Source: Salinicola peritrichatus (GTDB taxonomy: Bacteria; Pseudomonadota; Gammaproteobacteria; Pseudomonadales; Halomonadaceae). Taken from it: a stretch of 64,000 bases of DNA. The stretch spans positions 1 to 64,000 of the forward strand of contig NZ_PZJU01000007.1 in assembly GCF_003206715.1 (NCBI RefSeq). Direction: 5' to 3'. Position numbers and translations under genes: made by a program. The notes under the pieces are model-generated. The model saw only the letters and a list, made by a program, of their open reading frames with translations, did not search any database and was not told where the DNA came from. Each line of letters begins with the position of its first letter. Position 1 is the stretch's first letter. Shown piece after piece: positions 11,825 through 61,857 of the stretch.

Positions 11825-12709
11825 ATGAACTACATCGGTCGCTTCGCCCCGACGCCCTCCGGCCCACTCCACCTTGGCTCCCTTGCCGCCGCCCTCGGCA
11901 GTTGGCTCGATGCCCGTGCCGTCGGCGGCCGCTGGCTTTTGCGCATCGAAGACATCGATCCGCCGCGCTGCCCGCCCGGCGCTGACGACACCATCCGCCG
12001 CCAGCTAGCAGCATTCGGCCTCGAATGGGATGGCGAGGCGCGCTATCAAAGCCGGCGCGGCGATGCCTATCAAGCCGCGCTCGAGCGTCTGATCGACATC
12101 GGCATGGCCTACCCTTGCGGCTGTTCGCGCCAGGAGTGGCAACGATATGGCCACTATCCGGGCTGGTGCCGGGAAACCCCACGCCATCCGGAGCGGCCCC
12201 AGGCGTGGCGCCTGCGGGGCGATCTGGGCATCAATCCCGTGATCTGGAACGACCGTCTGTTCGGCGAGCAGCGCTTCGATCCCACGGCATTGGGCGATGT
12301 CGTGCTCAAACGCAAGGACGGCCTCTGGGCCTATCAACTGGCCGTGGTGGTCGACGATGCCGATCAGGGCGTCACCGATATCGTGCGGGGCTTCGATCTG
12401 CTCGACAATACTCCGTGGCAGCGCCAGCTGCAGGCGGCGCTGGGTTATCCCGAGCCACGCTATCTTCATCTGCCGCTGATTCTCGGCGACGACGGTCAGA
12501 AACTCTCCAAGCAGAATCTGGCCCCTCCCATTCCGCAGGACAGCGACTCCGCACGTCCGTTGTTGCACCAGGCTCTGCAACTTCTCGACCAGCAGCCGGC
12601 CGAATCGTTGCGTCTCGCCTCCGTCGAGGAGCAGTTGGCCGAGGCCCTGGACAACTGGGCACCAGCGTCGCTGACGGCAACACCGACCCGCGCCGGTTCC
12701 CTGGTCTGA
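11825..12709 (+). CDS. gluQ: Glutamyl-Q tRNA(Asp) synthetase
   Basis: Truncated glutamyl-tRNA synthetase paralogue that attaches glutamate to queuosine at the wobble base of tRNA-Asp. The 294 residues contain the class I catalytic domain only: [15 protein letters not shown] (HIGH region), the zinc-site segment [18 protein letters not shown], and QKLSKQN (KMSKS region). There is no anticodon-binding domain, as expected. ATG 11825 fits the family N-terminus (MNYIGRFAP); ATG 11810, five codons upstream, is the alternative. The dksA-gluQ pair is conserved in gammaproteobacteria. Confidence 0.93.
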
Positions 12710-12887
12710 AGCCGCCGGGACCTGCGGTGCCGTTTCCTTCTGCCCAAGAATTTGCCTGCCCCCTTCGGCTGAAGACTATCGATTGAAGACTATGGTCTAA
12801 GCGAAACTGAAGCCATTTTGCGCCACCCTGTCGCCATCGCAGCCCAATGATGCACCACGAACAAGCATGGCTAACCTCTCGTGCCCT

Positions 12888-12915
12888 GTTATGAATCAGG
12901 TTACTGAACAGTGAC
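12888..12915 (+). promoter_or_regulatory. Phased TGTTAC-like repeats, possible activator site
   Basis: TGTTAT, GGTTAC and AGTGAC start exactly 11 bases apart, one helical turn each, and lie about 70-100 bases upstream of the sigma-54-type promoter. The last two also form an imperfect inverted repeat (GTTAC-N6-GTGAC). That is where an enhancer-binding protein would act. CbrB of Pseudomonas is reported to use TGTTAC-type half-sites, as recalled and not checked. The rest of 12710-12985 shows no gene. Confidence 0.4.
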
Positions 12916-12985
12916 AGCAAACGACTAAGAGGTTGGCACGGACCAGAAACAGCAAATGGTTGTCAGGGCTGAAAAAAATACGGAG

Positions 12986-13001
12986 TGGCACGGTGAGTGC
13001 A
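12986..13001 (+). promoter_or_regulatory. Sigma-54-type promoter of the CrcZ-like RNA
   Basis: TGGCACGGTGAGTGCA matches the sigma-54 consensus TGGCACG-N4-TTGCW at every defined position except one (GTGCA for TTGCA). The invariant GG (12987-12988) and GC (12999-13000) have the required 10 bases between them. The start site would be near 13012. A second TGGCACGG occurs at 12935 but lacks the downstream GC. Confidence 0.75.
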
Positions 13002-13011
13002 ATATCTATGA

Positions 13012-13492
13012 CAAGAAAAACAACAGCGGGCGCCGATCGAACCCAACAATAACAAGACCATCGATCGGCCGATGACCCAGGCGTCGCCAATAACAACAAT
13101 ACGGCGCAGATATCCACGACTCGCTGCCGCCGAGCCGATAACAACAACAACGGCCTTGCAGGCGGAAAAGGGGCTAACAACAACAATCCCTCGGAGTCAA
13201 AAATCAGGACGCGACGTTCTTCGTTAGCGGGGCAACAACAATAAACTTCCCCGTCAGCTGAAGACTTGCCGGAACAACAACAAGAACCGGAAAGGGCATT
13301 GCCTGTCGTGGTTGGATTATTGCTTTGAATACGAGGTGGTCGCTCAACAAGCTAGACAACGACAACGCCTTCATTGCGCTATCGTTCGGCGACTGTGGTG
13401 CGTATTCAAGGCGATGCGCCATCACGAACAAGAAGAAGCGGCATGGACGTTGCAAGCATCCTTAAAAGGGAGGCCATGGGCCTCCCTTTTTT
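13012..13492 (+). ncRNA. CrcZ-like small RNA with AACAACAA Hfq motifs
   Basis: The roughly 480-base transcript runs from the sigma-54-type promoter to a strong terminator and has no plausible protein gene. It holds seven A-rich CA motifs: 13016-13025, 13045-13055, 13089-13100, 13140-13151, 13176-13187, 13234-13245 and 13273-13284, plus weaker ones near 13345-13366 and 13427. Each fits the AAnAACAA pattern bound by the distal face of Hfq. In Pseudomonas the CrcZ RNA, which sequesters Hfq/Crc and relieves catabolite repression, lies immediately upstream of pcnB and is made from a CbrB-dependent sigma-54 promoter. The same position, promoter class and motif content here point to a functional analogue. 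Unlike Pseudomonas, no cbrAB genes lie beside it. The 5' end is predicted. Confidence 0.75.
13464..13492 (+). terminator. Rho-independent terminator of the CrcZ-like RNA
   Basis: GGGAGGCC and GGCCTCCC form a perfect 8-bp stem extended by AAAA/TTTT, with a 3-base loop and six Ts. It ends the RNA about 90 bases before the pcnB promoter. Confidence 0.93.
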
Positions 13493-13644: not shown

Positions 13645-15075
13645 ATGTTCAAAGGATTTTCCCGTTTTCTCCAACGTCCCGGTGAACGTTTGAAGACTCT
13701 TTTCGGCCCCGAGTCCGCCCACACCGACCAAGATGCCTCTGCCTTGCAGACCGTACTGCCCCGTGACGAGCACAATGTCTCGCGCAAGAATCTGAGCGAG
13801 AACGCGCTCAAAGTGCTCTACCGCCTCAATAGCGCCGGTTTCGACGCCTACCTGGTGGGCGGCTGCATCCGCGACTCGCTGCTCGGAAGTCAGCCCAAGG
13901 ATTTCGATGTCGCCACCAATGCCACGCCCGATGAAGTCCGCCAGCTTTTTCGCAATTCCCGCATCATTGGCCGGCGCTTTCGTATCGTGCACGTGCGATT
14001 CGGCCGCGAGATCATCGAGGTCACCACCTTTCGCGGACGCCACAGCGACGAGCACGGCGGCAATCTCAGCCAGCAGTCCGATGAGGGCTTGCTGCTGCGC
14101 GACAACGTCTGGGGCAGCGTCGAGGAAGATGCCATTCGCCGTGATTTTACCGTCAACGCCCTCTATTACAGCGTCAGCGATTTTGCGATTCATGACTGGA
14201 CCGGCGGACTCAAGGATCTCGACGCACGCGTGCTGCGCCTGATCGGCGATCCGGAAACCCGCTATCGGGAAGATCCTGTGCGCATGCTGCGCGCCGCGCG
14301 CTTCGCCGCCAAGCTAGATTTCCGCATCGCCGAGGAAACCGATACTCCGATTCGGGAACTGGCGCCACTGCTGTTGCAGATTCCGCCCGCGCGTCTGTTC
14401 GAGGAAGTACTCAAGCTGTTTCTGTCGGGCCATGCCGTGCAGAGCTTCCGCGTGCTTCGCGAGCGCGGCCTCTATGCCATGCTCTTTCCCGAAAGCGACG
14501 AGGTACTCAACGAACACCCGTGGGCGGTCAGACTGGTGGAACAGGCGTTGGCCAATACCGATACGCGGCTGGCCGAGGAGCGCCCGGTAACGCCGGCGTT
14601 CCTGTTCGCCGCCCTGCTGTGGCCCTGCGTACAGCAGCGCACGCTACGGGTGTCGCATGAACAGGATCTGCCCGATGTTCCGGCGCAGCAGGCCGCCGCT
14701 CAGCAGGTCATCAGCCGTCAGTTGCAGCACACCTCGATCCCCAAGCGTTTCAGCATGCCGATGCGCGAGATCTGGGATCTGCAGCAACAGCTGCCGCGCC
14801 GCCGTGGCCGCCGCGTGTACCAGACCCTGGAACACCCTCGCTTCCGCGCCGCCTATGACTTCTTGCTGCTGCGCGAGGAAGCCGGCGAACTGACGCCGGG
14901 GCTGGGCGAGTGGTGGACCGAGTTCCAGCAGGCCGACGACGACCGCCAGCGCCAGCTATTGTCCAGTGTCGATACTGGCAACCCTGCCGATGCCAGCGGC
15001 AAGCCCCGTCGTCGTCGGCCGCGCAAACGCCGCCGTCCGGCCAACCGGCCGACACCGCCGACGCTGGATGATTGA
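13645..15075 (+). CDS. pcnB: Poly(A) polymerase I
   Basis: Adds 3' poly(A) tails to RNA, promoting decay by PNPase and other exonucleases. The 476 residues have the class II nucleotidyltransferase head with VGGCIRDSLLG and the catalytic acidic pair in KDFDVATNATPDEV, then RRDFTVNALYY, a neck/body region, and a very basic C-terminal arm (RRRRPRKRRRPANR) for RNA binding. The frame stays open back through the sRNA terminator, but ATG 13645 lies after the likely promoter. Its last 8 bases overlap folK. Confidence 0.95.
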   Translation: MFKGFSRFLQRPGERLKTLFGPESAHTDQDASALQTVLPRDEHNVSRKNLSENALKVLYRLNSAGFDAYLVGGCIRDSLLGSQPKDFDVATNATPDEVRQLFRNSRIIGRRFRIVHVRFGREIIEVTTFRGRHSDEHGGNLSQQSDEGLLLRDNVWGSVEEDAIRRDFTVNALYYSVSDFAIHDWTGGLKDLDARVLRLIGDPETRYREDPVRMLRAARFAAKLDFRIAEETDTPIRELAPLLLQIPPARLFEEVLKLFLSGHAVQSFRVLRERGLYAMLFPESDEVLNEHPWAVRLVEQALANTDTRLAEERPVTPAFLFAALLWPCVQQRTLRVSHEQDLPDVPAQQAAAQQVISRQLQHTSIPKRFSMPMREIWDLQQQLPRRRGRRVYQTLEHPRFRAAYDFLLLREEAGELTPGLGEWWTEFQQADDDRQRQLLSSVDTGNPADASGKPRRRRPRKRRRPANRPTPPTLDD

Positions 15076-22167: not shown

Positions 22168-22437
22168 TTAACGACGCAGGCCGAGCTTCTTGATCAGCGC
22201 CTGGTAGCGCTCGAAGTCCTTGCCCTTGAGGTAATCCAGCAGCTTGCGGCGCTGGTTGACCATGCGGATCAGACCACGACGGGAGTGGTGATCCTGCTTG
22301 TGATCCTTGAAATGGCCCTGCAGGCCATCGATGTTGGCGCTCAGCAGCGCCACCTGGACTTCCGGAGAACCGGTGTCGTTTTCGCCTTGACCGAACTCCT
22401 TGACGATTTCGGCCTTCTTTTCAGCAGTTAGTGCCAT
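22168..22437 (-). CDS. rpsO: 30S ribosomal protein S15
   Basis: Primary 16S rRNA-binding protein of the central domain of the small subunit. The 89-residue protein has the usual size and the conserved [13 protein letters not shown]-like segment (here [16 protein letters not shown]), [25 protein letters not shown] and the C-terminal [19 protein letters not shown] ribosome site lies 5 bases before the ATG. In E. coli S15 represses its own mRNA through a leader structure; the leader here is about 140 bases but a pseudoknot was not worked out. Confidence 0.98.
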
Positions 22438-22502
22438 GGAACTCTCCAGTCAGCAATATGCCTGTGTGATGAATGTCGGAGACCACGCATATTTGCAGTC
22501 TC

Positions 22503-22528
22503 CCGGATGATCGCCGGCGTTCATCCGG
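22503..22528 (-). promoter_or_regulatory. Hairpin in the truB-rpsO gap
   Basis: CCGGATGA and TCATCCGG form a perfect 8-bp stem around a 10-base GC-rich loop, about 65 bases upstream of the rpsO ATG. No T-run follows. It could be an mRNA processing site or part of an rpsO leader structure. Confidence 0.4.
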
Positions 22529-61477: not shown

Positions 61478-61857
61478 GGGGGCGACATGGCTTCGACGCC
61501 GGTGACAATCCCTGAGGTGCATGCCGAGAGCGTAACGTATCTCGTAAATCCAACGTTACGATTAAATAGTCGCAAACGACGAAAACTACGCTCAGGGCGC
61601 ACTGGCAGCGTAAAAACTGCTAGCTGTTAGCCTGGCCCCAAAGCGATGTGCCCATCCATCGCCGCGGGGATACGAGCTAAAGCTGATGGGACCGCGGATG
61701 TCAGCGCTCTCCTGACATTCGTTAAACCCTAGAGAGATCGCGAGGTGCAATCCTGCCCGTCGGAGTGCACCGAGTTAAATCCATAGACGGACCTAAGCAT
61801 GTAGAGCCAATGGGTGAGTGCCGGCGGACGGGGGTTCAATTCCCCCCGCCTCCACCA
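61478..61857 (+). ncRNA. ssrA: Transfer-messenger RNA
   Basis: The 380-base one-piece tmRNA has a tRNA-like acceptor stem formed by GGGGGCG at the 5' end and CGCCTCC at the 3' end, with encoded CCA and the T-arm GGGTTCAATTCCCC. The tag reading frame begins at GCA in GTCGCAAACGAC and encodes ANDENYAQGALAA then TAA, ending in the protease-recognised LAA-type tail. A -10-like TAGAAT lies at 61459, so ssrA probably has its own promoter after smpB. Confidence 0.97.

Follow-up and report, generated by a model that had tools for sequence, protein, structure and literature searches.

Does Salinicola peritrichatus, a member of the Halomonadaceae, carry a CrcZ-like RNA upstream of pcnB, and which activator would drive it? 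We analyzed a 64,000-nucleotide stretch of its genome (the window) together with related genomes. The region of interest lies between gluQ (11825–12709, + strand; identified as an ORF and by tblastn synteny) and pcnB (13645–15075, + strand; TIGR01942, 541.7 bits).

The predicted RNA gene and its partners

The predicted transcript is a CrcZ-like non-coding RNA of ∼480 nt at 13012–13492 (+ strand), its start being placed from the promoter. The original prediction described about 480 bases without a protein gene, and the ORFs in this region are indeed not conserved as frames. Protein-coding use was rejected: antisense ORFs and a 5′ extension of pcnB align piecemeal among relatives, in many cases with in-frame stops.

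The sigma-54-type promoter that had been predicted is TGGCACGGTGAGTGCA (12986–13001, + strand). It has GG and GC at the −24/−12 spacing and matches 11 of the 12 scored positions of the sigma-54 pattern. An IHF-like site, CAAN4TTG (12953–12962, + strand), lies between the enhancer and the promoter, and its position is kept across genera. In P. putida, IHF aids crcZ transcription (PMC6296734). A scan for sigma-70 promoters detected none.

Eight exact copies of AACAACAA and 10 copies of AACAAC were found in 13012–13456, where dinucleotide shuffles averaged 0.08 and 0.54 copies, respectively. The observed counts were reached by 0 of 2000 shuffles. Outside the motif cluster of the RNA, the maximum over the whole 64-kb window on both strands was 2 AACAAC per 445 bp. 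The enriched motifs form seven AACAACAA-type clusters, candidate Hfq/Crc sites, at 13019–13283 (+ strand), starting at 13019, 13045, 13092, 13140, 13176, 13234 and 13273. Their number is as predicted and their spacing, 26–58 bp, is much like the 35–60 bases claimed. Weaker clusters are present at 13346–13365. The RNA has a folding z-score of −3.3 against shuffles, and in the predicted fold most motifs sit in hairpin loops. Three of the motif-flanking stems show compensatory changes among relatives.

The strong terminator expected just upstream of pcnB is at 13464–13492 (+ strand), evident both from folding and from conservation. It consists of a GC-rich hairpin, GGGAGGCC/GGCCTCCC, followed by six T, with the layout AAAAGGGAGGCC-ATG-GGCCTCCCTTTTTT, and compensatory changes occur in it among relatives. 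A simple terminator scan missed this hairpin, probably because A-T pairs consume the T run.

Genes for Hfq and for Crc (50% identical) are present in the genome. The catalytic motifs of the Crc homologue are degenerate, and we rejected the idea that it is an active exonuclease. Active ExoIII enzymes carry QE.K, GDxN and SDH; the homologue has QNLK, CGTW and SEFAP at the catalytic motif positions. By pattern search, on which the genome-wide statistics rest, AACAAYAA occurs within 14 bases before an ATG 28 times in the genome versus 10 times for the reversed control. This excess is in line with the Hfq/Crc decoy mechanism. Several genes with AACAAYAA before the ATG encode transporters, and the ten annotated ones include TctC, NMT1, SBP family 5, Tsx and a weak DctM match.

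Conservation in the Halomonadaceae and relation to Pseudomonas CrcZ

A TGGCA-type sigma-54 promoter with AACAAC motifs precedes pcnB in nearly every family genome with a readable gap, whether CbrB is present or absent. The alignment of the gluQ-pcnB gap across the family, suggested as a check of the prediction, found both features conserved in nearly every genus examined. The family search included 14 Salinicola genomes, the window's own among them; proteins with 82–88% identity to its PcnB come almost entirely from named Salinicola, S. salarius, S. corii, S. socius and S. halophilus included. In this sample, as the genomes are related, counts across species are not independent. No such promoter/motif RNA was found before pcnB in an Allopseudospirillum-like genome (L082). 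That genome has CbrA and CbrB ∼116 kb from pcnB (L093, G311:C11:147143-151476).

An alignment of the RNAs from Salinicola, Kushneria, Larsenimonas, Chromohalobacter, Halomonas, Billgrantia and Bisbaumannia shows that a large part of the 5′ end CAAGAAAAACAAC is common to them, along with the motif positions, a 3′ core and the terminator. The structured 3′ core (13296–13430, + strand), with the long stem GAATACG...CGTATTC, is conserved and has covarying pairs. Over its 31 pairs, 98.6% of cells are paired and 23 cells are double changes versus 6 in shuffles, a count matched by 0 of 500 shuffles. R1, a covariance model built on this core, was run on a sample of 294 genomes of the order; it matched 12 of 12 family genomes and 0 of 282 others. 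A second, CrcY/CrcX-like copy was sought with R1 in the Salinicola genome, and only the one locus was found.

In a Pseudomonas-type control genome the genes run dksA-gluQ-cbrA-cbrB-crcZ-pcnB. This arrangement recurs in most Halomonadaceae genera, where the RNA takes the place of crcZ (cbrA-cbrB-RNA-pcnB). The original prediction gave the Salinicola RNA the location of Pseudomonas CrcZ. This holds for the place upstream of pcnB, but cbrA-cbrB are missing between gluQ and pcnB; if CrcZ is taken as the gene between cbrB and pcnB, the Salinicola RNA has only the second of these neighbors. Like CrcZ of Pseudomonas (RF01675, with CrcY/CrcX), it has a sigma-54 promoter with an IHF-like site, many AACAACAA loops and a terminator, in a genome with Crc and Hfq. 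In other Halomonadaceae the likeness extends to the adjoining cbrAB and the CbrB sites. Unlike CrcZ, the Salinicola RNA is ∼480 nt long, as against 398 model positions, and has a family-specific 3′ core. Salinicola also lacks CbrA, CbrB and the CbrB sites, and has an NtrC-like enhancer in their place.

The Rfam CrcZ search, proposed as a further check, was negative: RF01675 (gathering score 95 bits) had no match in the window or in the rest of the same genome. Within the family it gave one weak match, of 22.3 bits, in Kushneria. Rfam matches at gathering or permissive thresholds, mostly to the terminator, were judged to be due to chance. R1, in turn, does not recognize Pseudomonas CrcZ. The divergence between the RNA sequences is therefore beyond the reach of these models, and the case for homology to CrcZ is built on synteny, promoter, CbrB sites and motifs, not on RNA sequence. 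As the Rfam CrcZ model has no match, we named the RNA a "CrcZ-like variant". Elsewhere in the window, Rfam matched an S15 ribosomal leader (22381–22506, − strand) and a tmRNA (61478–61857, + strand).

Taken together, synteny, promoter class, motifs, conservation and the presence of Crc and Hfq support the predicted CrcZ-like RNA outside Pseudomonas, and the locus very probably encodes an Hfq/Crc decoy RNA of this type. In the open-access literature we found no description of a CrcZ-like RNA in this lineage, in keeping with the suggestion that it may be undescribed there. Reviews regard CbrAB-CrcZ as exclusive to the Pseudomonadaceae (PMC8871633, PMC6296734). In Azotobacter vinelandii, CrcZ/CrcY exert carbon control of the CrcZ type in a genus other than Pseudomonas (PMC6292655, PMC5429807), as is proposed for Salinicola; unlike Salinicola, Azotobacter belongs to the Pseudomonadaceae and its system is CbrAB-driven. 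Contrary to the limit given in the reviews, CbrAB-CrcZ is found across the Halomonadaceae. The same synteny and CbrB sites are also found in Hahella, Marinobacter, Microbulbifer, Gilvimarinus and Marinobacterium. In these genera and in Pseudomaricurvus and Bacterioplanes, CbrB adjoins a sigma-54 promoter, with CbrB sites and AACAA motifs also present ahead of pcnB (L215, L216-L219, L220, L223-L226, L227, L228, L244, L250).

CbrAB loss and the enhancer in Salinicola

The original prediction missed two things in Salinicola, the loss of CbrAB and the change of the enhancer. CbrB is absent from all 14 Salinicola genomes, one of which is a single contig (G377). The best matches to the CbrB query there have ∼288–296 bits and end at residue ∼380–400, before the DNA-binding end, whereas true CbrB proteins of the family have 391–633 bits. 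CbrA is absent from the same 14 genomes; the leftover match is a CrbS-like kinase and covers the transporter domain only. The Kushneria/Larsenimonas clade is also without CbrA and CbrB. On a tree of GlnA and PcnB, CbrB was lost at least twice independently, in Salinicola and in Kushneria-Larsenimonas, and the starred branches force two losses. The same tree needs about five CbrA changes. Chromohalobacter is among the genera without CbrA yet with CbrB and CbrB sites at crcZ (L057, L058, L061, L065, L060).

The CbrB subsites of P. putida are TGTTAC and GTAACA (PMC6296734). Both are present in 37 of 37 aligned CbrB-containing family genomes, and their distance to the promoter hardly varies. The pair is missing from all aligned genomes without CbrB, including all Salinicola; one isolated TGTTAC is present in the CbrB-less Kushneria aurantia. 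That the enhancer changed along with the loss of CbrB is supported by two loss events only.

A one-mismatch NtrC pattern gave 315 genome-wide matches and was too loose, so we adopted a matrix and a spacing test. The matrix (consensus TGCACCATAATGGTGCA) draws on 30 family genomes and their glnA promoters; a consensus, rather than footprints, served as its seed. Salinicola retains TGCACC-type elements at about −135 and −104 relative to the promoter. NtrC-like site 1, TGCACCACGAACAAGCA (12851–12867, + strand), has 8.6 bits and is conserved in Salinicola; NtrC-like site 2, TGCCCTGTTATGAATCA (12882–12898, + strand), is 31 bp from it. The pair has 13.1 bits, a value reached in 0 of 1000 shuffles, and ranks first among the 31-bp pairs of the 64-kb window. 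Across 425,760 positions in relatives, every one of the 16 pairs with at least 13 bits is a crcZ enhancer. When spacings were scanned, the maximum was at 31 bp both in Salinicola (4.6 sd) and in the genera with CbrB (4.3 sd); three glnA promoters likewise have tandem NtrC sites 31 bp apart. For nine CbrB-less loci of other genera, p≤0.003 was obtained with helical spacings (19–21, 30–32) allowed.

The strength of the sites differs between genera. Single sites in Salinicola mostly have 4–12 bits and are weaker than most glnA sites (9.5–21 bits). Kushneria sites have 16–21 bits, on par with those of glnA, and one of them, TGCACTAAAATAGTGCA, is near perfect with 20.9 bits. In genera with CbrB, the first site is a hybrid in which TGCACCA runs into TGTTACC, a form that points to a double enhancer in the ancestor. 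Because these genera share parts of the same sites, the NtrC-like sites may have another role. An NtrC equivalog (752 bits) is encoded beside ntrB-glnA in the Salinicola genome. As in the NtrC regulon, paired NtrC-like sites, here moderate ones, precede a sigma-54 promoter in a genome with ntrC. Like NtrC-activated sigma-54 promoters such as glnA, where the spacing is 31 bp in some genera, the enhancer has tandem sites; unlike them, its predicted target is a decoy RNA.

Proposed working and rival explanations

The sequences show the anatomy of the locus and how it is conserved, the losses of CbrAB and of the CbrB sites, and that NtrC, Crc and Hfq are present; transcription, Hfq/Crc binding, NtrC binding and physiology we infer. 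In most Halomonadaceae, CbrB would drive the RNA through TGTTAC/GTAACA, as in Pseudomonas. In Salinicola, phosphorylated NtrC on the tandem sites would activate the surviving sigma-54 promoter, with IHF bending the DNA and helping NtrC-P to open it. The A-rich AACAACAA loops would be bound by Hfq together with Crc. Once made, the RNA would draw Hfq/Crc off catabolic mRNAs and relieve carbon catabolite repression. If NtrC activates the RNA, this release would thus answer nitrogen limitation, and nitrogen starvation would lift carbon catabolite repression. We regard the statement as a whole, a CrcZ-like decoy RNA that lost CbrAB and is NtrC-driven in Salinicola, as reasonably likely. Whether CbrAB loss was tolerated at least twice because the enhancer already had NtrC-like sites, so that the RNA passed from CbrB to NtrC, appears evenly balanced to us. 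The two CbrAB losses are a natural experiment on which signal a CrcZ-type RNA must convey and on whether NtrC is able to take over from CbrB. Because several members of the Halomonadaceae are used in biotechnology, their carbon hierarchy matters.

The TGCACC-type sites might not belong to NtrC; the same Hfq/Crc decoy would then be under another sigma-54 activator, GlrR or an unclassified one. The genome does encode further sigma-54 activators, e.g. a GlrR-like protein (688 bits), and the Salinicola sites match NtrC only moderately. We nevertheless consider this unlikely, since the matrix was built on glnA promoters within the family, a 31-bp spacing is also seen among glnA promoters and the near-perfect Kushneria sites are at a nearby position. 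The RNA could also be a relic, decaying and unexpressed since its usual regulator was lost with CbrAB. Promoter, motifs, structure and terminator are kept, with compensatory changes, in Salinicola and the Kushneria clade, which makes such decay highly improbable. Equally little weight is given to a long 5′ leader of pcnB in place of a separate RNA. The region shares its strand with pcnB and immediately precedes it, but the strong conserved terminator intervenes, at least ∼140 bp before pcnB in Salinicola.

An input other than sigma-54 is conceivable at the ACTU-like palindrome GACTATGGTCTAA (12788–12800, + strand), a candidate CrbR/ErdR/EupR site with the same shape as published ACTU sites (PMC5715377). 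It is one of two exact matches in the genome, and in nearly all Halomonadaceae a palindrome of this kind is found ∼200 bp upstream of the crcZ promoter. The main input would then be CrbS/CrbR (EupK/EupR-like), and the RNA would answer acetate or compatible solutes. The palindrome is kept in genera with and without CbrB, the genome encodes a CrbS-like kinase, and the actP operon next to that kinase has the same motif ∼47 bp upstream. Against this, close to 200 bp separate the palindrome from the highly conserved sigma-54 promoter downstream of it, and no sigma-70 promoter was found beside the palindrome; as the main input, this route seems to us quite improbable. The palindrome may connect crcZ with the sensing of acetate or ectoine (CrbSR/EupKR). 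Besides the copy in the window, ACTU-like palindromes were observed before the actP operon adjoining the CrbS-like kinase, and also upstream of a gene for a GntR-type regulator (L141:3088; L109:1501-1513).
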